Assembly: GCF_023093535.1 (NCBI RefSeq) | Contig: NZ_CP095757.1 | Location: 2,170,001-2,234,000 of the forward strand | Reading direction: 5' to 3' | Origin: Halovivax limisalsi | GTDB lineage: Archaea > Halobacteriota > Halobacteria > Halobacteriales > Natrialbaceae | DNA length: 64,000 nt | In this document: positions 3,048 to 15,529 of the stretch, piece by piece | How the letters are laid out: every line of letters begins with the position of its first letter | Position numbering within the stretch: position 1 is the stretch's first letter | Position numbers and translations under genes: made by a program | Notes under the pieces: generated by a model | The model's input: the letters and a program-made list of their open reading frames with translations, nothing else | Told to the model about the DNA's origin: nothing | Databases searched by the model: none

Positions 3048-4862
3048 TCAGCGGTCGCGGATCTCGTACAGTTCGAACTCGGCGTTCGACACGTAGCGGG
3101 CCGATCCCCGATCGGCCGGCAGGGCCGAAAGCGACTCGGGGTCGTAATTCAGCCCCCGGTAGACGTCGTGTTCGCGCACCCGATCGTACGAGCTGAGGGC
3201 GAGGAAGTAGGGGCCGTCGCCGGGATAGGCCTCGTGATAGGCCCGGCGGTTGAACGCGTCCATCTCGATCGTCCCGTCGCCGGGCCAGGCGATGCCGGCC
3301 TCGGTGGCGTTCATCGACTCGACCCCGTTGATCGCGTGATTGTATCGCGTCGTCGTGTAGCCGTAGCCGGCGTACGGCCTGTCGTCGACGCCGCCGGTGA
3401 TCGCGGTCTCGTAGCCGTGGTAGGTCGCCTCGGAAACGTGCTGGGTGGGGTTGTAGATGAACGGCGAGGAGAAGACGCCCAGAAGGGCGACGACGAGACA
3501 GAGGCCGAGTACGACCGCCAGCACGCCCGACACGGCCGACCCGGGCACGTGTTTCTCGACCCGACCGGCCCCGCCGGCGACGGCCAGCCCCGCGAGAACG
3601 GTCACGACGACGAAGATGAAGCCGAGCTGGCGAAACGCCATCGTCGGCGTCCCCAGGAAGTAGACGGCGAAGATACCCCCGAGGGGGAGCAGCGAGACCC
3701 CGAGGTACGAGACGACCGCCCGGGTCTCTCTCGGTCCCCGGCTTCGACCGGTCCAGACGACGAGCAGATAGGCGCCGACCGCGAGCCCGATCACCGCGCT
3801 CACGAGGAAGAGCTTCGCGAAGAGTTCCGGCAGGCTCGCACCGATCTCCGTCAGCGACGCGCCGCGCTGGTCGACGGTGCCGCTCGCCCCGAAGGCGCCG
3901 GACAGCAAGCCGTACAGCAGGCCCTCGAACGCCTCCCTGAACCGGGGGTTGGCGAACGCCCAGACGACGAACGCGCCACCGAGCACCGCCGTGTAGGCGT
4001 GCGTCGTCGGGTGTTCCAGGATCGGATGGTCGTCGAACCGGTAGCGCGCGAGCAATTGTATCGCGCTGATCGTCGCCAGGATGACGACGGCGTTGACCAT
4101 CTGCTGGGGATGCAAGAGCAACAGGCCGACGCCGCTGATGACGACCAATAGCCCGAACGGCGAGAGCGCCGCGGGGAGCCGATCGTCACCCGACCGGCGG
4201 CCCAGGTAGACGAGGAGCGCGAAGACGAAGGCCGGCGCGTAAAAGAGCGCGTTCGAGTTCGTGTGGACGCCCGCGTACGTCGCGACGTTGTTGACCGGGA
4301 GGACGAACCACGAGACGACCGCCCCGGTGCCGATCGCGAGCGGATCGTCGGTGATGGCCCTGACGGCCAGCGGGACGACCAGGACGAACGAGACGAACAG
4401 CACGATCACCGTGAGCAACAGCGCGTGCGGCGGTTCGACGCCGGCTATCAGGACGAAGAGCGAGGCGACGCTGTGGACGCCGGGGTAGAGCAACTCGTGG
4501 GGCGCCATCGTCCCGGCGAGGAGGTCGCGCACCCAGCCGAGGTGGGTCATCGCGTCACCCTTCCCCAGGAAGTAGTACCCGCGAACGACGGGCAGACTGA
4601 TCACGGTCGTCGTCGCCAGCGCCCCGAGTGCGATCGCGACCGCCTGGGCGGCGCCTCGAAGCGAGAGCGCCGCGACGATCGCGACGGCGAACGCGAGCCC
4701 GATGGCGGCCCAGGTCGCCGGGGGCGTCGCGGCGTAGATCGACGGCTCGTACTCGGTCGCCGGTGTCGCCCGCGCGACGAGGAGCGCAGCGGTGATCGCC
4801 AGGAATCCGACCGCGAGACCACCGTTCACGAACCAGCCGCCGCTACTCGGTCGGTCGCTCAT
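3048..4862 (-). CDS. Polytopic membrane protein, GT-C glycosyltransferase-like
   Basis: This 604-residue protein is made of about twelve to fourteen hydrophobic helices followed by a soluble C-terminal part of about 100 residues. After the third helix, residues 99-110 read LGKGDAMTHLGW. An acidic residue in the first large outer loop is where GT-C glycosyltransferases carry their catalytic or metal-binding motif. The soluble end contains short motifs rich in tyrosine and aromatic residues (ITGGVDDRPYAGYGYTTTRY). It is probably a lipid-linked sugar transferase or a polymerase of surface glycan, consistent with the neighbouring glycan genes. The GT-C reading is my inference from topology plus one motif. 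It is transcribed away from the PP-loop gene at 5164. Confidence 0.6.
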   Translation of the reverse strand: MSDRPSSGGWFVNGGLAVGFLAITAALLVARATPATEYEPSIYAATPPATWAAIGLAFAVAIVAALSLRGAAQAVAIALGALATTTVISLPVVRGYYFLGKGDAMTHLGWVRDLLAGTMAPHELLYPGVHSVASLFVLIAGVEPPHALLLTVIVLFVSFVLVVPLAVRAITDDPLAIGTGAVVSWFVLPVNNVATYAGVHTNSNALFYAPAFVFALLVYLGRRSGDDRLPAALSPFGLLVVISGVGLLLLHPQQMVNAVVILATISAIQLLARYRFDDHPILEHPTTHAYTAVLGGAFVVWAFANPRFREAFEGLLYGLLSGAFGASGTVDQRGASLTEIGASLPELFAKLFLVSAVIGLAVGAYLLVVWTGRSRGPRETRAVVSYLGVSLLPLGGIFAVYFLGTPTMAFRQLGFIFVVVTVLAGLAVAGGAGRVEKHVPGSAVSGVLAVVLGLCLVVALLGVFSSPFIYNPTQHVSEATYHGYETAITGGVDDRPYAGYGYTTTRYNHAINGVESMNATEAGIAWPGDGTIEMDAFNRRAYHEAYPGDGPYFLALSSYDRVREHDVYRGLNYDPESLSALPADRGSARYVSNAEFELYEIRDR

Positions 4863-5163
4863 GCGTCGATCGCTCCCGGGACGTGCGACTGCGAACCCAT
4901 TCGACCCGCTCGACGGGTCCGACGACGTTTGTTAGCCGCGCGCTACCGATTTTGGCGTCGATCGAAGCGCTCGGGAACGCGGCCGTCGACGCGTCTAGGG
5001 GCGCGATACGGGATCCCGAGCGCCGGTACGGAGCCCGATCCGGCCGAACGAGGGGATCGACCCCATTCGCTTCGCGCGTGATTCCATCGTTCTCCGCTCG
5101 TGCGAGCGCCCGGTCGGTTTTAGCCGTCCCGCGTTGGGCGTCGGGGTACCGATCTTCGCTTCC
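4863..5163. other. Divergent intergenic region
   Basis: This region of about 300 bases separates two divergent genes and must hold both promoters. Near 5115 the plus strand has an AT-richer GGTTTTAGCC, which could serve the PP-loop gene with a leader of about 20 bases. I see no gene in it. Confidence 0.45.
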
Positions 5164-6543
5164 ATGTCACGACTCAGCATCGACGCCGTCGAGGCCGACG
5201 GGACGACGCTCGGGGCGACCGTCAGCGCGCGCGGCGGGATGGAGCGTTTCGTCAGTGCCGAACCGTTCCGGGTGAACTACGACCGGTCGATCGAGGGGGT
5301 GCCCGAGTCGATCCTCGTCGTTCCCGTCCTCGCGCAGGTCCTTCCGGTCGCCTGGGCCCGCGGCGCGACCGTCGAAGCACCCGTCGTCGACGCGACCTTC
5401 GCCGAGTCCGTCTCGAAAGCCGGCGAGGCGCTCCTCGACATGCACGATTTCCTCGAGGGCGGCCGGCTCGTCGCCAGGACGGTCGAACCCGACCCGCCGG
5501 ACGCGCCGGATCGGCCGTCGGAATCGACGACGGCTGATGAATCGGAGACGGGGAGTGAAACGGAGCCAGTCGAGGCGTCGGGGAACGCCGGATTGCTGTT
5601 CACGGGCGGGGTCGATTCGACCGCCTCGTACGTCGCTCACCGGGACGAAGACCCGACGCTGATCAGCGTTCGCGGGTGGACGATCACGCCGGCCCCCTCG
5701 GACGACGAGAAGTGGGACGCCCTCCGCCGACGCGTGGAAACGTTCGCCCGGGAGCGGGGGCTGGAGACGGCGTTCGTCGAGTCGAACGTCCTCGAGTTTC
5801 TCGATCACCCGATGCTGCTCGCCCACTACAAGCGCCACGTCGACGGGGCGTGGTACAGCTCCGTGGGACACGGCCTCGGTCTCACGGGGCTGTGCGCGCC
5901 GCTGGCGTACGCGAGCGGGCTGTCGGACCTCTACGTCGCCGCGACCCACTGGGACGGCGTCGACCTGGCCTGGGGCTCGCACCCCCGGATCGAGAACGCC
6001 GTGGCCTGGACGGGCACGCGCTGTCACCACGACGGCTACGACCGCACGCGGCAGGAGCGCATCGACGCGATCGCCGACTACGTCGCGGAGACCGACGACG
6101 CGCTCGAACTGCAGACCTGCAACGATCGCACGGACGGCAACTGCGGGGCGTGCGAGAAGTGCTATCGGACGGCCGTCGGGTTGCGACTCGCCGGACTCGA
6201 CCCGACGGATCACGGCTATTCGTTCACCGAGCGCGACTACGAGACGATCAGGCGCGGATTCGAGCGCGGCCGGTGGGTCCTCGGGCAGGACGAACGTTAC
6301 ATGTGGGCCGACATTCGCGACCGCGTGGGGGAGACGACGCCCCGATCGGCGACCGAACGCGCGTTCTTCGAGTGGCTCGCCGACGCGGATCTCGACGACC
6401 TGGTCGACGACGCGACGCCGCCGCTCACCCATCGCCTGTTGCGAGCGGGGGCGCGTCACACGCCGACGGCGCTCTACCGGCGACTGTATCCCGTCTGGCG
6501 CCGCGCGAACGCGATCGGCGACCTGACCGACTCGGCGCGCTGA
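5164..6543 (+). CDS. PP-loop ATPase, QueC/ExsB-like, in a glycan cluster
   Basis: This 459-residue protein has a pyrophosphatase-loop motif FTGGVDS at residues 146-152, the ATP-binding signature of the N-type ATP pyrophosphatase superfamily. Cysteines at 319, 327, 330 and 333 (NCGACEKC) form a likely zinc site like that of QueC. About 140 residues precede the PP-loop and match nothing I know. About 110 residues follow the zinc site and end in a basic helix. Enzymes of this fold adenylate a carboxylate or carbonyl before adding nitrogen or sulfur. Queuosine/archaeosine precursor synthesis is one known role, but the protein is twice the length of QueC and sits among glycan genes. Amidation of a sugar acid is therefore a reasonable alternative. 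I chose the ATG at 5164 over 5134 because MSRLSIDAVE starts the conserved-looking part. Confidence 0.7.
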   Translation: MSRLSIDAVEADGTTLGATVSARGGMERFVSAEPFRVNYDRSIEGVPESILVVPVLAQVLPVAWARGATVEAPVVDATFAESVSKAGEALLDMHDFLEGGRLVARTVEPDPPDAPDRPSESTTADESETGSETEPVEASGNAGLLFTGGVDSTASYVAHRDEDPTLISVRGWTITPAPSDDEKWDALRRRVETFARERGLETAFVESNVLEFLDHPMLLAHYKRHVDGAWYSSVGHGLGLTGLCAPLAYASGLSDLYVAATHWDGVDLAWGSHPRIENAVAWTGTRCHHDGYDRTRQERIDAIADYVAETDDALELQTCNDRTDGNCGACEKCYRTAVGLRLAGLDPTDHGYSFTERDYETIRRGFERGRWVLGQDERYMWADIRDRVGETTPRSATERAFFEWLADADLDDLVDDATPPLTHRLLRAGARHTPTALYRRLYPVWRRANAIGDLTDSAR

Positions 6544-6649
6544 GCCCAACCGCATCCGGAGAACCCGGGTTCGAACGCGATCGACGGACGCCTTCGAAGC
6601 GAATTTGCGGACGAACGACTCGCTCGCGTCCGGGTGACGGCCGGCCGGG

Positions 6650-8242
6650 CTACTCCATGTAGCCGAGCCCTTTGAGCCGTCGCTCGACGGCGTCGAAATC
6701 GTCGTCGACCGGTTCGTCGGTCACCGTCGCGCGGATGTCCTGGCGTCGTACTTTGGTCGTCGCCGGTCGGGAGTCGGGGTCGAACGCGTCGAAGAGCACC
6801 CGGCCGTCGACGTTGTCGGGGACCGGTTCGCCGAGTCCGTGCAAGAGCGTGGGGGCGACGTCGACGACTCGCGCCCCGCGCAGGGTCGCTCCCGCCTCGA
6901 TCCCCGGACCGGAACAGAGCATGATCCCGGTCGATCGATGACTCGCCGCGGTGTCGCCGGGCTCCCCGAACGGTTCGTCGGTGATCGTGGGTCGGCTCTC
7001 GTAGCCGTCGCGACCGTTGACGACGAGGTCGGGCGACGCGTCGTCGGTCGGGAAGAGGTCGTCGCCGTCGAAGACGCGAAGCACCCGCTCGTCGGTCTCC
7101 GGGTCGGTCACCGCTTCGAACGTTCGCCTGACGGATTCTTTGACCGCCGGGACGTCGCGCGGCTCGACGATGCCCGATTCGAAGCGTTCGACGTCGTTAA
7201 TGTAGACCGTACCCGCGTTGTGGACGAACGCCTTCGTCCGCTCGTAATCGACGTCGTAGAGCGCGTGGTCGCCGGGCAGTTGCTCGGCCACGGAGTCGAC
7301 GAGGTCGCGCGGTAACGCGGTCGCGAGCCGTTCCTCGGAAATGCCGAGCGTCTCGAGCACCGACGTGACGCTATCGCGGGTGATGCCGAGCGTCGAGAGG
7401 ACGCCGCGGGTGCCCTCGTCATCGCGCCGAGTGAGTAGTCCCTCGCGCTCCAGCAGGTGGTTGACGTAGACGAGCGTGTGAATCGGCCCGAACCCGTGAT
7501 CGGAGACGACGTAGAGGGTCGCGTTCGCCGCGGCCGCGCGATCCATCGCCTCGCCGACGACCTCGTCGAGGCGGCGATAGTGATCGAGGAGCCGATCCTC
7601 GTCCCAGACGAGATGCTGGAAGCGATCGGGGGCGGTGAAGACGAAAAAACAGAGCCGCCAGTCCTCGACCCGGTTGCAGAGGAGATCGAGCAGTTCGCGA
7701 CGATCGTCCATCACGTCCTCGACGGCCGTCTCGAAGGCGTCGCGGTCGTCCGCGTAGTCCGGATACTCGAGCGAGATCCGGTAATCGGGGATGCGCTCGT
7801 CGATCTCGGTCGCGAGCTCGGGCGGCTCGGTGTACGTTCGATCGGTCGAGGGCGCCATCATTCCCGAGACGACGGCGCCGTCGATCTCGGCGGGCGGGTA
7901 ACTCAGCGGGACGTTCCCGACGATCGCCGGCGAGAGCGAGCGCCAGATCGGCGGCTGCCGACAGTCGCGGCTGGTGTACATCCGATGGGTGTAGCTACTC
8001 GAGAGCTTCTGAAAGCCGTAGATGCCGTGTTTGTCGGGCCAGACGCCGGTGGCGATCGACGGCCACGCGAGCGGCGTCGTCGGCGGGTGCGTGCTCTCGA
8101 GCGGCCCCGACGCGCCCCGTTCGCGCAACCGCGCGAAGTTCGGGAGGTGGCCGGCCTCACTCCACCGTTCGACGAACCGCCACGGGACGCCGTCGAGCCC
8201 GAGGACGAACGCTCGATCGGCTCCGGTCTGTGTTGTAGGCAT
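6650..8242 (-). CDS. Type I phosphodiesterase / alkaline-phosphatase-superfamily enzyme
   Basis: This 530-residue enzyme has the metal-site motifs of the phosphodiesterase/nucleotide pyrophosphatase branch of the alkaline phosphatase superfamily. They are LGLDGVPW with Asp17, the nucleophile region PPTTPLAWPSIATG (Thr55 or Thr56), APDRFQHLVW, VSDHGFG and a late ASHRSTGIM. Family members hydrolyse phosphodiesters or transfer phosphate-linked groups. No signal peptide or membrane helix is visible, so it acts in the cytoplasm or at the inner membrane face. It converges with the PP-loop gene and is divergent from the polysaccharide deacetylase, which suggests a role in glycan or lipid-linked intermediate turnover. 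The substrate cannot be read from the sequence. Confidence 0.8.
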   Translation of the reverse strand: MPTTQTGADRAFVLGLDGVPWRFVERWSEAGHLPNFARLRERGASGPLESTHPPTTPLAWPSIATGVWPDKHGIYGFQKLSSSYTHRMYTSRDCRQPPIWRSLSPAIVGNVPLSYPPAEIDGAVVSGMMAPSTDRTYTEPPELATEIDERIPDYRISLEYPDYADDRDAFETAVEDVMDDRRELLDLLCNRVEDWRLCFFVFTAPDRFQHLVWDEDRLLDHYRRLDEVVGEAMDRAAAANATLYVVSDHGFGPIHTLVYVNHLLEREGLLTRRDDEGTRGVLSTLGITRDSVTSVLETLGISEERLATALPRDLVDSVAEQLPGDHALYDVDYERTKAFVHNAGTVYINDVERFESGIVEPRDVPAVKESVRRTFEAVTDPETDERVLRVFDGDDLFPTDDASPDLVVNGRDGYESRPTITDEPFGEPGDTAASHRSTGIMLCSGPGIEAGATLRGARVVDVAPTLLHGLGEPVPDNVDGRVLFDAFDPDSRPATTKVRRQDIRATVTDEPVDDDFDAVERRLKGLGYME

Positions 8243-8559: not shown

Positions 8560-9525
8560 GTGGCCGCGGTGGGTAGCGTCGTCGTCTCCCTCGACGCCGA
8601 ACTCGGCTGGGGGTTTCACGACATCGAAACGCCCCCGCGCGAGCGCCTCGAACGCGCCCGGTGGGGATGGCGCGAGACGCTCGCCCTCCTCGACGAGTAC
8701 GACGTCCCGGCCACCTGGGGGGTCGTCGGCCACCTCATGCTCGAGACCTGCGACGGTCGCCACGAATCACACCCGACGGCGCCCGACTGGTTCGCCCGCG
8801 AGCGAGCCGACTGGGCGGATCGGCCGGATCGACGGTTCGGGCCGGAGCTCGTCTCGGCCGTCGTCGACTCGCCGGTCGACCACGAGATCGCCTGTCACTC
8901 GTTCTCCCACGTGCGCTTCGGCGATCCGACGACGTCGGCTGAACTGGCCCGCGCCGAGTGCGAGCGCGCGATCGAGGTCGCCGACGAGCGGGGCCTCTCG
9001 CTCGAGTCGTTCATCTTTCCGCGAAACGAGGTCGGCCACCGCGACGTCCTCGCCGCGTCGGGCTTTCTCGCCTACCGCTCCAGAGAACCCGCTCCTGAAG
9101 GGGCGGTGCGGGTTCTCGGGGACGTCGTGCGATCGCCGTCGCTGCTCGTCACGCCCCGGATCGACGACGTCGGCCTGGTCGACGTCCCGCCGTCGCTCTT
9201 CGCGTTCGGGTTCGAGGGCCGGTTGCGCCGGCTCGGGTCGGCGCTGCGACTCGACCCGATCGTCGTCCTCGCGCGTCGCGGGATCGACCAGGCTGCCGCT
9301 GGCGACGGCATCTTTCACCTCTGGTTCCATCCGAACAACGTCACGACCCGCGAGGACGTGACGCGACTCCGGCGGATCCTGTCGTACGTCGACCGCGTGC
9401 GAAGTCGAACCGATCTGCAGACGGAGACCATGGCGTCGGTAGCTCGTCGAACCCTCTCGTCGGCGCCGACGGGGGAGGCCCGGGCACCTTCGCCCGCAGA
9501 CCAACGTCCGCTCGCGACCGACTGA
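8560..9525 (+). CDS. Polysaccharide deacetylase (NodB-like, CE4)
   Basis: This 321-residue enzyme shows the motifs of the NodB/CE4 deacetylase fold: SLDAEL with Asp12 (motif 1), HEIACHSFSH (metal-binding HxxxH, motif 2), FPRNEVGH (motif 3) and HLWFHPNN (late His motif). It would remove N- or O-acetyl groups from a glycan or lipid-linked sugar. There is no signal peptide, so it probably acts on a cytoplasmic precursor. The start is a GTG at 8560 with GGAG four bases upstream (8552-8555). The ATG at 8541 is in another frame and stops after 11 codons. Neighbours are glycan genes on both sides. Confidence 0.82.
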   Translation: MAAVGSVVVSLDAELGWGFHDIETPPRERLERARWGWRETLALLDEYDVPATWGVVGHLMLETCDGRHESHPTAPDWFARERADWADRPDRRFGPELVSAVVDSPVDHEIACHSFSHVRFGDPTTSAELARAECERAIEVADERGLSLESFIFPRNEVGHRDVLAASGFLAYRSREPAPEGAVRVLGDVVRSPSLLVTPRIDDVGLVDVPPSLFAFGFEGRLRRLGSALRLDPIVVLARRGIDQAAAGDGIFHLWFHPNNVTTREDVTRLRRILSYVDRVRSRTDLQTETMASVARRTLSSAPTGEARAPSPADQRPLATD

Positions 9526-9599: not shown

Positions 9600-10625
9600 T
9601 CACCGATCGTCGATCGGGACCGTCCTCGGCGGACGGCTGGACGGTCCGTCCGCGCGGTCGAGCGCGCGATCGTACACCTCCCGGACGGCCGCGGTCGTCC
9701 GTTCGAGTCGTACCGGTTCGACCGTCTCGCGCCCGTTCGAGCGGCCGCCGTGGCCCAATACGCGCCGCAGTCCGTCGCGCAACTCCCGGTCGGTCCGACA
9801 GACCGCGCTCGGCTCGACACCGTCGAGGCGCTCGGGCACGTCGCCGACCGCGGTCGCGACGACCGGCAGGTTACAGGCCATCGCTTCCTTGACGGCGTTG
9901 GGAGAGCCCTCGTGTCGAGACGTCAGCAGGAGCGAGTCGGCCGCGTTCATGTACAGCGGGATCCGGTCGTGTGCGACGCCGGAGACGGTCCGCAGTCTGA
10001 GCGGTCGGTCGAACTCCGGATCGAGCGCGTCGACGACCGATTTCGCGCGCGGATAGTCCTTCACCGATCGGGTCTTCGCGTACGGGAAGAGGACGTCGAA
10101 TCCGTCTCCGACCCAGCCGAGTGCGCGCCGCGCTCGCTCGCGGTCCATCGGGCGAAACAGATCCATGTCCACGCCGTCGGGAATGACGTGACAATCGGTC
10201 CCCACCAGCCGCGCCATCTCCCGCGACATGACGATCGTCTCGGCGCTGGCGCGAGCGGCGAGCCTGCTGATCGGGGCGACCGCCGGATTGTACAGGTCAG
10301 ACCCCCACAGGGAGAGGACGACCGGCAGGCGTCGCTGGACGAACGCGGCGGGGGCGAGGAGACCGTAGTGGGCGTGAACGAGATCGATCGATTCGTCGAT
10401 CGCGTCCCGAACCCGGGCGAGGAACCGAACGTAGTCGAGCGGGCTTCGACCCGACGGCGACGACGGATCGCCGGGGACGCTACACACCCTCGTCTCGACG
10501 CCGGCCGTTTCGAGCGCCTCGACCTGCTGGGCGAAAAACGGCGCCGCTCGGTTCGAGGTCAGGGCGAGGACGCCGATCTGCCGATCGCGACGCGTCACGC
10601 GGGGGCCGTCGCGGGGCCGCTGCAT
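9600..10625 (-). CDS. Glycosyltransferase family 4 (GT-B fold)
   Basis: This 341-residue enzyme has the two Rossmann-like halves of GT-B glycosyltransferases. The N-terminal half contains LVHAHYGLLAP and LWGSDLYNP. A hinge VIPDGVDMDLFRP follows, and the C-terminal sugar-nucleotide site is HEGSPNAVKEAMACNLPVV, the E-x7-E region of GT4. It would transfer a sugar from a nucleotide or lipid donor during surface-glycan synthesis. I chose the ATG at 10625 (MQRPRDG); the frame is open to 10658. It converges with the deacetylase gene. Confidence 0.8.
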   Translation of the reverse strand: MQRPRDGPRVTRRDRQIGVLALTSNRAAPFFAQQVEALETAGVETRVCSVPGDPSSPSGRSPLDYVRFLARVRDAIDESIDLVHAHYGLLAPAAFVQRRLPVVLSLWGSDLYNPAVAPISRLAARASAETIVMSREMARLVGTDCHVIPDGVDMDLFRPMDRERARRALGWVGDGFDVLFPYAKTRSVKDYPRAKSVVDALDPEFDRPLRLRTVSGVAHDRIPLYMNAADSLLLTSRHEGSPNAVKEAMACNLPVVATAVGDVPERLDGVEPSAVCRTDRELRDGLRRVLGHGGRSNGRETVEPVRLERTTAAVREVYDRALDRADGPSSRPPRTVPIDDR

Positions 10626-10773
10626 TGTTAGTCGCACAAATTGACTGCCGGAAACCACTCCATACCGGGGCGCCGGGTGGCGGTTTCGACGGCGAAACCG
10701 ATAGGGTCCGCGGACGACGTCGCCAGGGCGTTACGCGGTCGTTTACCGTCGCAGCGAGTGACGTATCGGCGGA

Positions 10774-10785
10774 CGTTTATGTACC
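10774..10785 (+). promoter_or_regulatory. TATA-like box for zinc-ribbon gene
   Basis: CGTTTATGTACC lies 29-40 bases before the ATG at 10814, within range for a short-leader transcript. Confidence 0.4.
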
Positions 10786-10813
10786 GGTTCGGTGAACGTC
10801 CGACGACGCCCGC

Positions 10814-11068
10814 ATGACATTGCGAGAGTATCTCGCGGCGCTCGTCTACTCGTCGGGGCCGCCGGTCGAGGCGCGACCGGACAACGGGCGGCCTCACGAG
10901 CGTGACCGGAAGCACGATCGATCGCTCGAACCGGGGACGACCCGGTTGGTGGAGGCGGAGCGATCGGTCGTCTACGAGTGTCGACGGTGCGGGACGACCG
11001 TCGACGACGCCTCGACCGCCTGTCCGCACTGCGATCGCCGGACGATCGCCGAGTACCCCGTCGATTGA
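10814..11068 (+). CDS. Small zinc-ribbon protein
   Basis: This 84-residue protein has a short N-terminal part with a possible hydrophobic helix (REYLAALVYSS), a charged linker of about 40 residues, and a C-terminal zinc ribbon. The ribbon has two CxxC pairs (YECRRCGTTVDDASTACPHC). Its ribbon closely matches that of the 48-residue protein at 50066-50212, with VVYECRRCGTTVD identical in both. The function is unknown; single zinc ribbons in haloarchaea often mediate protein or nucleic-acid contacts. Confidence 0.7.
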   Translation: MTLREYLAALVYSSGPPVEARPDNGRPHERDRKHDRSLEPGTTRLVEAERSVVYECRRCGTTVDDASTACPHCDRRTIAEYPVD

Positions 11069-11207
11069 ATCCGTCGCCGAAATCCCGTCGACGGGGTGAT
11101 CGCCGAACACCCGGTCGCGGAACACGATCGAAGTGCCTCTGGTCGAGTATCGACGGCGTCGGGTCGCACGCGGGAACCGACCGAATCGGCGTCGAGAACC
11201 CCTCGCG

Positions 11208-12782
11208 TCACTCGTGGCTGGCCGAGAGTCCGTCGTCGACGGCTCGATCCTCGACCGGCCGCTCGGCCCGACCTGACGGCGACGCACGCTCTCGGTCGGC
11301 TGGTTCCGTCCGCCCACCGAGGACGTCGTAGGTCGAGGGCGGCGATTCGAACGCGAGTCCCTCTCTGCCGTCGAACAGGTACGACAGGTCGAGGCGATCC
11401 CACGCCACGTCGTCGAAGGCGTCGTGGGGCGTCACGACCATCGCGGCGTCGAGGTCGAGCGACGAAACGGTCGCTCGATCGGTGACGATCGTCGTCTCCG
11501 TCGCCGGGCCGTCACCGTTGGATCGTCGGGATTCGAGCGCGGCTTCGACGGTCGCGGCGTCGACCAGGGGATCGATCGCGACGACCGTCGCGCCCCTGGC
11601 TTCGAGTTCCGCGATGGCGTCGAGCGCCGGCGCCTTTCGCAGTTCGGCCACGCCGGGCCGGTACGTCAGCCCGAAGACGCCGACGCTCGCCTCCGAGAGG
11701 CTGGGCCCGTCCGCCTCGAGGCCCGCCTGGAACGCATCCACCGCGTGGACGGGCATCCGATCGTTGACCCGCCTGGCCGTGGCGAGCAACGGCGTCGGCG
11801 TTTCGGTCTCGGCCCGGACGAAGTGCGGGTAATTGGGGATGCAGTGGCCGCCGACGCCCGGTCCCGGATCGTGGAGATCGCAGACGGGCAGTTCGTTCGC
11901 CGTGGCGATCGCCTCGCGCACGGAGATCCCGAGTTCGCGCGCCGTCGTCGCCAGCTCGTTGGCCAGCGCGATGTTGACGTCGCGATAGATCCCTTCGAAG
12001 ACCTTGACGGCCGCCGCCGTCGTCGCGTCGCCGACCACGTCGATCTCGCCGTCGGTCACCTCGCCGTAGAGGATCGCCGCCGCTCGCGCGCTCTCGTCGT
12101 CGATCCCGCCGACAACCTTCGGGTAGCGCCCCTGGATGTCCCTGAGCGCCGTCCCCGAGGACGTGCGTTCCGGACAGACGGCGACGCCGAACGATCCGGG
12201 TTCGAGCCCGGACCGTTCGAGGAGGATCGGCTCGATCACGTCGCGCGGAACGCGCGGCGGGACGGTGCTCTCGACGATCACCAGATCGCCCGCGGCGAGG
12301 CCGTCCGCGATCGTCTCGACGGCCGCCTGGAGCGCGGAGAGGTCCGGCTCGTTCGCTGCCGTCACGAGCGTCGGGACGAGGATCACGTGCACGCTCGCAC
12401 GCGTCGCCGCGGCCACGCCGTCGGTCGTGGCTCGCAGCCGTCCCCGTCGAACCTGCGACGCCACGAGCGAGTCGAGGCCGGGTTCTCCCTCGACCGGACA
12501 GGCCCCGTCGTCGATCCGGTCGACCACGTCGGGATCGATGTCGACGCCGATCACGTCGCCGGTTCGCTCGGCCACGACGGCCGCCAGGGGCAACCCCATC
12601 TTTCCGAGGCCGAACACCGAGGTGGTGACCTCGCCGTCGCGCAGCGCCGCCCGGAGTTCGTCGTCGGAGGCGTCGATGCCGTACAGCGCGCTCGGTCCGT
12701 TCCGATCGGCGTACGTCCCCGAATCGCTCCGGTCGGTGTGCGCCCCTGAATCGTTCCGATCGGAGGGTGCGTTCGGCGTCAT
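11208..12782 (-). CDS. UDP-N-acetyl-hexosamine 6-dehydrogenase (WecC/WbpA-type)
   Basis: This 524-residue enzyme oxidises C6 of a UDP-N-acetyl-hexosamine to the uronic acid with NAD. It shows the NAD site VFGLGKMGLP (residues 57-65), the CPERTSSGTALRDIQGRYPKVVGG segment split across 203-226, the central lysine and aspartate region, and catalytic Cys314 in GVGGHCIPNYP. The first 45 residues are a low-complexity extension with near repeats of DRNDSG / DRSDSG, and the last 40 are also unstructured. The start overlaps the stop of the upstream oxidoreductase by one base (TGATG), so the two are cotranscribed. The 785-residue frame extending upstream is an artefact. With its neighbours it matches WbpA of the 2,3-diacetamido-uronic acid pathway. 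Confidence 0.85.
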   Translation of the reverse strand: MTPNAPSDRNDSGAHTDRSDSGTYADRNGPSALYGIDASDDELRAALRDGEVTTSVFGLGKMGLPLAAVVAERTGDVIGVDIDPDVVDRIDDGACPVEGEPGLDSLVASQVRRGRLRATTDGVAAATRASVHVILVPTLVTAANEPDLSALQAAVETIADGLAAGDLVIVESTVPPRVPRDVIEPILLERSGLEPGSFGVAVCPERTSSGTALRDIQGRYPKVVGGIDDESARAAAILYGEVTDGEIDVVGDATTAAAVKVFEGIYRDVNIALANELATTARELGISVREAIATANELPVCDLHDPGPGVGGHCIPNYPHFVRAETETPTPLLATARRVNDRMPVHAVDAFQAGLEADGPSLSEASVGVFGLTYRPGVAELRKAPALDAIAELEARGATVVAIDPLVDAATVEAALESRRSNGDGPATETTIVTDRATVSSLDLDAAMVVTPHDAFDDVAWDRLDLSYLFDGREGLAFESPPSTYDVLGGRTEPADRERASPSGRAERPVEDRAVDDGLSASHE

Positions 12783-13777
12783 CACTGGCGCACCTCGACG
12801 CTCTCTGCCGTGCGGATCCGATCGTCGATCGAGTCGATCGTCTCGAGCGCGTTCAATCCGTCCTCGGCGGTGACGACGGGCGCGCTGCCCTCCGTCACGG
12901 ACGTGACGAACGACTCGATCTCGGCCCGGAGCGGTTCGCGGTTTTTCACCTCGGGCCGTTCGATGACGCTCTCGTGTCGGTAGTGCGTTCCGCTCTCGTC
13001 GGTGACGTACTCCGGGAACGAATCGCGATAGACCAGCACCGACTGGTCGAGGTAGTCGACTTCGACGAGGCAGTCGACCGCCATGATCGTCAACCGACGG
13101 ACCTTCCGCTGGCTGACGCGACTCGCCGTCAGCGTCGCCACGACGTCGTCGAATTCGAGCGTCGCCGTCGCGTGTTGCCCGTCGGCCGTCCCCGTCGCCG
13201 ACACGCTCGTCGGTCGCGCGTCGAGCATCGACTGGACGACGTCGACGTCGTGAATCATCAGATCGAGCGTGACGCGATCCGTGGCCGTTCGATCGATCGG
13301 CGGCCCCAGTCGTTTCGCGTCGACGGCGATGATCTCGAGGTCCGAGAGCAGTCGCTTCGCCGCCCTGACCGCGGGATTGAACCGTTCGACGTGCCCGACC
13401 TGCAACACGAGTCCCGACTCGCGAGCGAGCGTCGCGAGTTCGCGACCCCGTTCGACGTCGTCGGTGATGGGTTTCTCCACCAGGACGTGGACGCCGGCCT
13501 CGAGACAGCGCTGGACGGTGTCGTAGTGGACCGATGTCGGGACGGCGACGGAGACGACGTCGCACGTCTCGAGCAGGGAATCCAACTCCATCGTGGTCGT
13601 CTCGTACTCGGCGGCCACGCAGCGGGCGAGTTCGTCGTCCAAATCGGTGACGCCGGCGAGGCTGACCCCGCGCGATTCGCTGTAAACGCGCGCGTGATTC
13701 TCTCCCATCGCGCCGACGCCGACGACGCCGGCGCGGGGCGGGTTCGATACCTGTCGCTGGTTGGATACGAAGCTCAT
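12782..13777 (-). CDS. Gfo/Idh/MocA oxidoreductase, probable UDP-sugar 3-dehydrogenase (WbpB-like)
   Basis: This 331-residue NAD(P)-dependent oxidoreductase has the Rossmann motif GVVGVGAMGENHAR (residues 17-30), the catalytic EKP at 101-103 and the C-terminal sheet domain typical of the family. In bacteria (WbpB) and Methanococcus (UDP-GlcNAc 3-dehydrogenase) such enzymes oxidise C3 of UDP-GlcNAc or its uronate. The product is a 3-keto sugar for the next aminotransferase. Translation is coupled to the downstream 6-dehydrogenase, and the aminotransferase gene lies 67 bases upstream. The 3-dehydrogenase call rests on gene context more than on unique residues. Confidence 0.78.
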   Translation of the reverse strand: MSFVSNQRQVSNPPRAGVVGVGAMGENHARVYSESRGVSLAGVTDLDDELARCVAAEYETTTMELDSLLETCDVVSVAVPTSVHYDTVQRCLEAGVHVLVEKPITDDVERGRELATLARESGLVLQVGHVERFNPAVRAAKRLLSDLEIIAVDAKRLGPPIDRTATDRVTLDLMIHDVDVVQSMLDARPTSVSATGTADGQHATATLEFDDVVATLTASRVSQRKVRRLTIMAVDCLVEVDYLDQSVLVYRDSFPEYVTDESGTHYRHESVIERPEVKNREPLRAEIESFVTSVTEGSAPVVTAEDGLNALETIDSIDDRIRTAESVEVRQ

Positions 13778-13844: not shown

Positions 13845-14954
13845 TCATGCTGATTCGTAGTGGGTCGCGATCGCTCGGACCACCCGGCGGCAATCGTCCG
13901 CGTCGAGCCCCGGGTGGACCGGAATCGAGAGCACTTCGCGCGCCGCTCGCTCCGCTTTCGGCAGCGTCGTCGCGGCCGTGTGAACCGAGTCGTACGCCGG
14001 TAGCCGGTGGATCGGCGTGGGGTAGTAAACGCCCGTCTCGACCCCTGCGTCGTCGAGCGATTCGCGGAGGGCGTCCCGGTCGTCGGCTCGAACCGTGTAC
14101 TGGTGGTAGACGTGGGTCCGGCCGTTGGGGACGGCTGGGGGACGCACGGGCAGGTCGGCCAGGTGCTCGTCGTAGTACTCGGCGTGTTCTCGGCGCGCGC
14201 GTGTCAGCTCGGGGAGCCGGTCGAGCTGTCGTCGGCCGATCGCCGCCGCGATGGACGTCATGCGGTGATTCGAGCCGAGTTCGGCGTGCTCGTAGCCGCG
14301 GTCGTCGCCGTCGCGGCGGCCGTGGTTGACGTAGCTTTGGACGCGGGCGGCGAGGGCAGCATCACTCGTCGTCACCATGCCGCCTTCCCCGGTCGTCATG
14401 TTCTTGGTCGGATAGAAGGAGAAACAGCCGGCGTCGCCGATCGAGCCGGCCGGTCGGCCGTCGATCGTCGCCCCGTGAGCCTGACAGGCGTCCTCGAGGA
14501 CGAAGCAGTCGTGCTCGTCGGCGATGGGGGTCAGTTCGTCCATCGGCGCCGGCAGTCCGTAGAGGTGGACCGGGAGGAGCCCGACGACGTCGTCCCGTTC
14601 GCGACACCGTCGCTCGACCGAGTCGGGATCGATCACGAACGTGTCGGGATCGACGTCGGCGAAGACCGGCCGGCCGCCGGCGAGGCGGATCGCGTTCGCG
14701 CTCGCGACGAACGAGAACGGCGAGGTGACCACCGCGTCGCCGTCGTCGACGCCGAGCGCCTCGAGTGCAGCCTGAAGCGCGGTCGTCCCGTTCGACGTCG
14801 CCACGGCGTGGTCCGTCTCGCAGTAGTCGGCGAAGGCGTCCTCGAAGCGGCGGACCTCGGGTCCGTCCGCCAGCGCGCCGCGTTCGAGCAGCGCCTCGAT
14901 CCGGTCGTAGGCGGCCGGGCCGACGTCGGGGTCGGCGAGGGAGACGTCGGTCAT
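13845..14954 (-). CDS. DegT/DnrJ/EryC1 sugar aminotransferase (WbpE-like)
   Basis: This 369-residue PLP enzyme has SNGTTALQAAL (phosphate-binding), ASANAI, VLEDACQAHGA (Asp contacting the PLP nitrogen) and the Schiff-base Lys184 in FSFYPTKNMTTGEGG. It would transfer an amino group from glutamate to the 3-keto-UDP-sugar made by the adjacent oxidoreductase. Its ATG overlaps the stop of the acetyltransferase gene by four bases (ATGA), so the pair is translationally coupled. The long frame reading beyond 14954 is out of register with the real upstream gene. Confidence 0.83.
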   Translation of the reverse strand: MTDVSLADPDVGPAAYDRIEALLERGALADGPEVRRFEDAFADYCETDHAVATSNGTTALQAALEALGVDDGDAVVTSPFSFVASANAIRLAGGRPVFADVDPDTFVIDPDSVERRCRERDDVVGLLPVHLYGLPAPMDELTPIADEHDCFVLEDACQAHGATIDGRPAGSIGDAGCFSFYPTKNMTTGEGGMVTTSDAALAARVQSYVNHGRRDGDDRGYEHAELGSNHRMTSIAAAIGRRQLDRLPELTRARREHAEYYDEHLADLPVRPPAVPNGRTHVYHQYTVRADDRDALRESLDDAGVETGVYYPTPIHRLPAYDSVHTAATTLPKAERAAREVLSIPVHPGLDADDCRRVVRAIATHYESA

Positions 14955-15529
14955 CGGAGCTGGTTCGCCCCCTCGAGCGCGGGTGGCAGTTCTCGGTGGC
15001 CTGCCGGACAGCCCACCGCGAGTCGATTCGGCGGGACGTCCTCGGTCACGACCGCGCCCGCCGCGACGAACGCGTTCTCGCCGATCGTCACGTCCGGCAG
15101 GATCGTCGCGTTCGCCCCGACGGACGCGCCGGACTCGATCGTCGGGCCCGCGAGTTCCGCCTCGCGTCTGATCGGCGCGGGATCGTTGGTCAGGACGGCG
15201 CCCGGGCCGACGAAGGTGTTCGATCCGATCGTGGTCTCCGTCGGCACGTAGACGTTCGTCTGGAGGCTGACGTGGGAGCCGATCTCCGTCTCGCCGTCGA
15301 TGACGGTCTTCGTTCCCACGAGGACGTCGTCGCCGATGGTCGTCCCCTCCCGCACGAGCACGTCGTGGCCCGTTCGGAAGTCGTTGCCGACGGTGACGCC
15401 GCCGTAGATGATGCTCCCCGCTCGGATCGTCGCGTCGTCGCCGATGCGGGTCGGTTCCTCCGCGTCGCCGTAGCCGACGGTGACGTCCTCGTCGATCGAG
15501 CACGCCGTTCCCTCGACGAGCCGAGTCAT
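14951..15529 (-). CDS. Hexapeptide-repeat N-acetyltransferase (WbpD-like)
   Basis: This 192-residue protein is built almost entirely of hexapeptide repeats of the left-handed beta-helix type (for example IGDDATI, VGNDFRTG, IGDDVLVG, IGSHVSL). It ends with the typical AVVTEDVPPNRLAVGCPA segment of nucleotide-sugar acetyltransferases. It would acetylate the 3-amino group installed by the aminotransferase. It is the first gene of the four-gene set on the minus strand. A TATA-like GGATAACAAAGCG lies at 15623-15635, leaving a leader of about 70 bases. Confidence 0.82.
   Translation of the reverse strand: MTRLVEGTACSIDEDVTVGYGDAEEPTRIGDDATIRAGSIIYGGVTVGNDFRTGHDVLVREGTTIGDDVLVGTKTVIDGETEIGSHVSLQTNVYVPTETTIGSNTFVGPGAVLTNDPAPIRREAELAGPTIESGASVGANATILPDVTIGENAFVAAGAVVTEDVPPNRLAVGCPAGHRELPPALEGANQLR

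Follow-up and report, generated by a model that had tools for sequence, protein, structure and literature searches.

The window, a 64,000-nucleotide stretch of the Halovivax limisalsi genome (contig NZ_CP095757.1, positions 2,170,001 to 2,234,000), carries the gene of a long PP-loop ATPase of the QueC/QatC fold. By analogy with its structural relatives, the protein may well be a glycan-tailoring, AMP-forming ligase that activates a carboxylate (or an amide carbonyl) for attack by ammonia or an amine. The family to which it belongs is tightly linked to glycan genes in many lineages; the superfamily is already known, and the family itself is unnamed in Pfam, NCBIfam and PADLOC. Activation of a sugar carbonyl is the most likely role because a QueC core with a PP-loop occurs here in a glycan setting and without the deazaguanine motifs. 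The gene and the parts of its product are as follows.

5164..6543, plus strand: gene of the long QueC/QatC-fold PP-loop ATPase, 459 aa (ORF, homologues, model)
5164..5487, plus strand: N-terminal alpha/beta domain, residues 1-108 (predicted structure, alignment)
5488..5583, plus strand: linker modelled with low confidence, residues 109-140, reduced or absent in relatives (model, relatives)
5599..5619, plus strand: PP-loop FTGGVDS (pyrophosphate-binding loop), residues 146-152 (sequence, alignment)
6118..6171, plus strand: C-x7-CxxCEKCxRT, putative zinc site and family signature (sequence, alignment)
6202..6540, plus strand: C-terminal helical extension, residues 347-459 (model)

The reading frame opens with ATG at 5164, with an in-frame TTG at 5134, and an antisense ORF (5167-6555, minus strand, 462 aa) overlaps the gene along its length. 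Despite this antisense ORF the plus-strand gene is not a product of chance, because its protein is encoded in 55 of the 61 genomes of the host family; the PP-loop gene at 5164-6543 is real. The original prediction, made from the DNA letters, had named the PP-loop FTGGVDS and a QueC-like zinc site. Both are present, and the spacing of the putative zinc-site cysteines (C319, C327, C330 and C333; C-x7-C-x2-C-x2-C) is that of all ten haloarchaeal QueC proteins compared. It had also described the protein as extended in front relative to QueC, which holds for about 145 residues, and had missed about 110 more behind the zinc motif.

Conservation was read from a family alignment of 69 ORFs (mostly from 95 family ORFs) plus the window protein, from which long-start ORFs, near-duplicate ORFs and plasmid loci were omitted. 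The ORFs came from a simple longest-ORF script, which gave approximate starts and missed some haloarchaeal genes; neighbour counts were made by tblastn instead. The clear family signature is C-x(n)-NCxxC[ED]KCxR, and in the form NCxxC[EDK]KCx[RF] it occurs in 69 of the 70 rows. Invariant columns are G149, R296, C319, N326, C327, C330, K332 and C333. Within the PP-loop G149 is invariant, and F146, G148 and D151 are each conserved in at least 90% of rows; a PP-loop regular expression matched 62 of 70 rows, a count to which the alignment columns are the better guide. The N-terminal domain, modelled with strands at residues 3-12, 15-23, 35-38, 68-76 and 100-108 and helices at 48-66 and 77-93, has P54, W64 and D76 invariant (38 of 38 aligned rows).

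An AlphaFold2 model built from the 70-row alignment had a mean pLDDT of 92.1 and a pTM of 0.90. When the full model was submitted to Foldseek, the QatC structures 9y01 and 9y02 were the sole PDB chains at E <= 0.001. VIA-align matched the model to QatC 9y01_B over 300 aligned positions (Z 12.8, rmsd 4.7, model residues 1-405), to QueC 2pg3 over 191 (Z 12.2, rmsd 3.9), to QueC 3bl5 over 186 (Z 12.1, rmsd 3.3) and to Cap9 9nto over 170 (Z 10.1, rmsd 3.4), with the nitrile synthetase ArtA (Z 9.9) and argininosuccinate synthase (Z 9.8) following. The difference in Z between QatC and QueC is within the range of a tie, and the QatC match covers most of the chain. QatC, from the Qat anti-phage system, is the best structural match; it is similar in length to the window protein and likewise consists of an N-terminal extension, a QueC core and C-terminal helices. 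Likeness between the two at the sequence level was detectable by profile only: comparison with 11 QatC sequences gave a probability of 86.5 and an E of 4.6e-6 over 104 columns (the end of the N-terminal domain plus the PP-loop). The corresponding comparison with 10 haloarchaeal QueC sequences was weak (probability 20), a point against the ligase reading. Modelled alone, the N-terminal domain (pLDDT 92.2) had no confident fold match; its best Foldseek E was 0.011, its best VIA Z was 5.4, to RNase H domains, and QatC was absent among the matches listed by Foldseek or VIA for this domain. The RNase H-like matches of the modelled domain may be a mere common arrangement.

Pfam held no model for the window protein, one chance-level match aside, and no model of NCBIfam or PADLOC claimed it. 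There was no match to Asn_synthase, to NF041925 or to the PADLOC QatC model, and a sequence search of solved structures gave nothing better than E 0.058. Plain membership of PF06508, the QueC family, was rejected on the lack of any match to the window protein at E <= 1. Across the 70 rows, PF19932 (DUF6395, itself a family without an assigned function) matched 13 and PF06508 matched 10 (best 0.0014) at E <= 0.1, these being the sole Pfam models to touch several rows; in all rows examined singly their scores lay below the curated cut-off. The NF041925 QatC model matched two rows at the same threshold (best 0.036). The family falls below the PF06508 cut-off, and a 2026 survey of the QueC superfamily, in the part available, maps PF06508 only and does not describe this family (PMC13329287). 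A literature search found no paper that connects QueC-like PP-loop proteins to genes for polysaccharides or pyruvyl transferases, nor anything on DUF6395.

Matches to the window protein were found in 55 of 61 Natrialbaceae genomes (its own included) and in none of 39 genomes from other families of the order. An alignment search of 294 genomes of the phylum gave 20 with a match, four of these only at about E 5e-4; among the 20, another family of the order accounts for two copies and an archaeon further removed for one clear match. Relatives on plasmid records came from haloarchaea, Priestia, Pseudobutyrivibrio, Gemmobacter and Gloeothece, and a scan of species-level genomes with the alignment of these plasmid relatives confirmed 521 places (587 stretches). 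The best 80 of the 521, ranked by likeness to a Priestia protein, were used. Their bacterial members belong to Bacillota, Bacteroidota, Acidobacteriota (Geothrix), Verrucomicrobiota, Chloroflexota and Actinomycetota, and their archaeal members to Bathyarchaeota, ANME-1, Methanobrevibacter, Thermoplasmatales and many Halobacteria. Evenly drawn genomes seldom contain the family: at E <= 1e-20 it occurs in 3 of 296 Bacteroidota and in 2 of 348 Bacillota, with the centre genome itself included in both counts, whereas in the host family it is near-universal. Haloarchaeal rows formed one group (support 98/96) in a tree that drops 8 of the 70 alignment rows. IMG/VR searched with the single window protein yielded no relative, and a mainly viral gene was rejected on the count of only 10 IMG/VR loci.

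The neighbours named in the original prediction (a GT-C-like protein, a phosphodiesterase, a deacetylase and the diacetamido-uronate genes) were all found in the window, the last set within 11.2-15.5 kb.

3048..4862, minus strand: GT-C-like membrane protein, 604 aa, weak DUF6541, divergent neighbour (Pfam)
4863..5163, no strand: intergenic region of 301 bp between the GT-C and PP-loop genes (ORF coordinates)
6650..8242, minus strand: type I phosphodiesterase / nucleotide pyrophosphatase family (PF01663), convergent neighbour (Pfam)
8560..9525, plus strand: polysaccharide deacetylase family protein (PF01522; Pfam)
9600..10658, minus strand: GT4 glycosyltransferase (Pfam)
11208..12650, minus strand: UDP-glucose/GDP-mannose dehydrogenase family, start approximate (domain match)
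12782..13777, minus strand: Gfo/Idh oxidoreductase, best NCBIfam model UDP-GlcNAc 3-dehydrogenase, below cut-off (NCBIfam)
13845..14909, minus strand: DegT/DnrJ/EryC1 aminotransferase domain, start approximate (domain match)
14951..15529, minus strand: hexapeptide N-acetyltransferase, NeuD-like, below cut-off (NCBIfam)

A 229-aa ORF (10628-11317) between the GT4 and UDP-sugar dehydrogenase genes matched nothing in Pfam or NCBIfam and may be spurious.

We defined Natrialbaceae-type loci as those with a PP-loop protein at least 55% identical to that of the window (n=28, window included). A divergent GT-C-like gene lies within 2.5 kb at all 28 (aligned ends 287-771 bp apart), and also at two further Natrialbaceae-type places beyond the 28. 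A PF01663 protein lies within 10 kb at 26 loci (22 when at least 50% identity is asked for), and a deacetylase gene lies within the same distance of the PP-loop gene at 24. These three, the GT-C, the phosphodiesterase and the deacetylase, are the constant partners of Natrialbaceae-type PP-loop genes. No GT-C neighbour was found at close range in eight other halophile loci (40-55% identity) or in four further places. The tie to diacetamido-uronate genes, on which the original prediction had drawn, did not hold up: a window-type UDP-sugar dehydrogenase and Gfo/Idh lie near the gene in 3 of the 28 loci, and a close link was rejected on this count. In most Natrialbaceae loci a trio of Gfo/Idh oxidoreductase, DUF362-like protein and HpnA-like epimerase (e.g. 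L021:18502-21511) replaces the diacetamido-uronate genes; this different Gfo/Idh and the DUF362-like protein lie within 15 kb at 18 of the 28 loci, with the HpnA-like epimerase also present in 16. Near the PP-loop gene of some halophile loci (L021, L170, L171 and L173) there is a GNAT, a CoA-transferase or an ATP-grasp protein annotated 'carboxylate--amine ligase', as though strains exchanged acyl or amine decorations at these slots.

Outside the halophiles we examined 55 loci drawn from the best 80 of 521, an uneven sample of which about half is Flavobacteriaceae; the neighbour counts do not include the ten IMG/VR loci. A PF04230 'pyruvyl transferase' gene lies within 6 kb in 46 of the 55 by tblastn (37 within 1.6 kb) and, by annotation only, in one more (L024), which brings the count to 47. 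Wzx, glycosyltransferases and UDP-sugar dehydrogenase (28 of 55) are common around these genes. Twenty genomes, picked from loci already having PF04230 nearby, contain 27 PF04230 genes; 16 of the 20 carry a single PF04230 gene, always beside the PP-loop gene. At three new places from the even draws, PF04230 was adjacent in one and unrecognised in 17 kb in the second, and the third lay on a 3.8-kb contig. PF04230 was found near the PP-loop gene in none of the 28 Natrialbaceae-type loci. Because the host genome has no PF04230 gene, and 33 of 121 genomes of its family carry one, this partner is not obligatory. It speaks against the ligase reading that no single carboxylate-making gene is constant: a UDP-sugar dehydrogenase gene lies close by in 3 of the 28 halophile loci and in 28 of the 55 others, and PF04230 is near none of the 28.

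In the proposed reaction, the QueC-type core would bind ATP through the PP-loop, and AMP would be transferred to a carboxylate (or an amide carbonyl) on a sugar building block; the sugar is most likely linked to a nucleotide or to a lipid. This substrate would probably be held by the N-terminal domain together with the C-terminal helices. Ammonia or an amine would then displace AMP to give an amide (or an amidine). Uronic acids, pyruvate ketals and other acids are all candidate acceptors, and the product might be an amidine, a primary amide or an amine in amide linkage; the substrate need not be a diacetamido-uronic acid made by the neighbouring genes of the window. The adenylation chemistry we infer from QueC, from Cap9 and from PP-loop enzymes more widely; that the substrate is a sugar, and what the nucleophile and product are, we infer as well. 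In both QueC and Cap9, ATP activates a carboxylate that ammonia or an amine then attacks (PMC12424860, PMC13329287). Cap9, from type IV CBASS, shares the core fold of the window protein (Z 10.1), and its ATP-driven coupling of carboxylate and amine is the model for the chemistry that we propose; Cap9 is itself a minimal core of about 185 aa that retains the QueC motifs (PMC13329287).

A broader and more tentative reading, which we think possible but rather doubtful, is that the family is a new class of surface-glycan carboxylate-amine ligases built on a QatC-type QueC scaffold. In bacteria and some archaea its neighbours would make a pyruvate ketal or uronic acid, whose carboxylate it would then amidate or couple to an amine; in Natrialbaceae it would have become a near-core enzyme paired with one GT-C. 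Glycan tailoring would then be a further use of the QueC fold, beside tRNA and DNA modification and the modification of proteins in anti-phage defence. If the family makes sugar amides or amide-linked substituents, it would provide a candidate enzyme for such modifications, for which to our knowledge the enzymes are often unknown; the gene, present in 55 of the 61 Natrialbaceae genomes searched, would then also offer a testable handle on the surface glycans of these haloarchaea.

The original prediction had arrived at activation of a sugar carboxylate through an analogy with WbpG. ATP-driven carbonyl activation does fit the fold and the glycan cluster; the links to WbpG and to diacetamido-uronate genes fell away. 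WbpG and PseA are PP-loop proteins of diacetamido-uronate clusters. The P. aeruginosa sugar concerned bears a 3-acetamidino group (PMC8319346), from which it follows that WbpG would act on the N-acetyl carbonyl and not on the carboxylate, and we regard it as a weak analogue for carboxylate activation. That the window protein is an amidine synthase of the WbpG/PseA type, activating a sugar N-acetyl carbonyl and inserting ammonia to form an acetamidino group, is unlikely. The N-sugar amidotransferase signature CxxC(x)6CxC (PMC13329287), which differs from the cysteine signature of the PP-loop family, occurs in 0 of 70 rows, and none of these rows has an NCBIfam N-acetyl sugar amidotransferase match at E <= 0.1. 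The window does hold a PP-loop enzyme together with diacetamido-uronate genes, but such genes are near 3 of 28 loci only; also in favour of an amidine synthase is the second step of QueC (amide to nitrile), which shows that the core can activate an amide (PMC13329287).

No glutaminase partner (HisH/HisF-like) or other ammonia source was annotated beside the PP-loop gene in the five Natrialbaceae loci examined, which speaks against the ligase reading. A Cys nucleophile at residue 2 is a feature of glutaminase domains, and no Ntn glutaminase with Cys2 was recognised in the window protein, in which residue 2 is Ser and the N-terminal domain is weakly RNase H-like (Z 5.4). A documented case of a sugar carboxylate being amidated is that of the asparagine-synthetase-like WbpS (PMC7468200). 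As a uronamide synthase of a glycan cluster WbpS would have the same role as the one proposed here, but it belongs to a different PP-loop subfamily with another architecture.

Somewhat less likely still is a protein-modifying ligase like Cap9 or QatC: a partner protein within the glycan machinery would have its N-terminus linked to a carboxylic acid, of which 7-carboxy-7-deazaguanine is a possible case. Although the nearest whole-chain structural match is QatC, and a canonical queC is also present in 30 of 34 carriers of the PP-loop gene, the motifs VPxRN, YPDC and P(x)4TK each occur in 0 of 70 rows. The last of these is found in 11 of 11 QatC proteins, and a pattern like C(x)19CGxCxxRR, searched with a loosened regular expression, occurs in 4 of 70 rows compared with 8 of 11 QatC. 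Judged from inferred starts, a Met-Gly start was found in none of the GT-C proteins (28), the phosphodiesterases (26) or the PF04230 proteins (33 of one type and 8 for each of two further queries). No qatA, qatB or qatD was annotated in the five Natrialbaceae loci examined, qatB being a gene for which Pfam has no model. A Qat defence system was rejected on the scarcity of QatC model matches (PADLOC, NF041925) and of QatC motifs.

It is very improbable that the protein is a PP-loop enzyme of sulfur transfer, close to LarE, TtuA and TilS, with a sugar or a tRNA as its substrate. Chains of TtuA, LarE and TilS are in the structural list at Z 8-9, well below QatC and QueC, and the QueC-like zinc spacing of the window protein stands against the three-cysteine iron-sulfur pattern of LarE (PMC13329287); the glycan context, moreover, is constant in the loci examined.

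QueC (PF06508) shares with the window protein the PP-loop, in which the latter carries T where QueC has S, the Rossmann-like core fold and the C-x7-CxxCxxC spacing. The window protein differs in being twice as long, in its gene context and in the lack of VPxRN and YPDC, the QueC substrate motifs found in 10 of 10 haloarchaeal QueC and in 0 of 70 family rows. A canonical queC lies elsewhere in the host genome (C1:1283876-1284526, E 4.9e-67). When 38 genomes of the host family were examined for both genes, with queC scored at E < 1e-20, 30 had both, 4 the PP-loop gene alone, 2 queC alone and 2 neither. Replacement of QueC, the outcome that the original prediction had named as refuting, was not seen, as queC stands alongside the PP-loop gene in 30 of 38 genomes; with coexistence in 30 of 34 carriers, this candidate was rejected. 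Three Natrialbaceae genomes that are 97-99% complete (G009, G011 and G030) have no strong canonical queC match. A queuosine- or archaeosine-pathway paralogue located by chance in a glycan island is scarcely credible: the QueC-like core, the Cys4 spacing and the four of 34 carriers in which no strong match to queC was found (three being 97-99% complete) speak for it, and are outweighed by the separate canonical queC in the host genome and 30 of 34 carriers, the absence of both substrate motifs from all 70 rows and the linkage of the gene to glycan genes.

Two tandem copies on the IMG/VR contig L136 (6533-7693 and 7662-8816) carry altered PP-loops (ALTLGVDS and ALSCGVDS), and ATP use has perhaps been changed or lost in them. 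Tandem paralogues of the PP-loop gene are present at L022, L048, L067, L100 and L101 as well as L136, and might be enzymes with differing sugar specificities.
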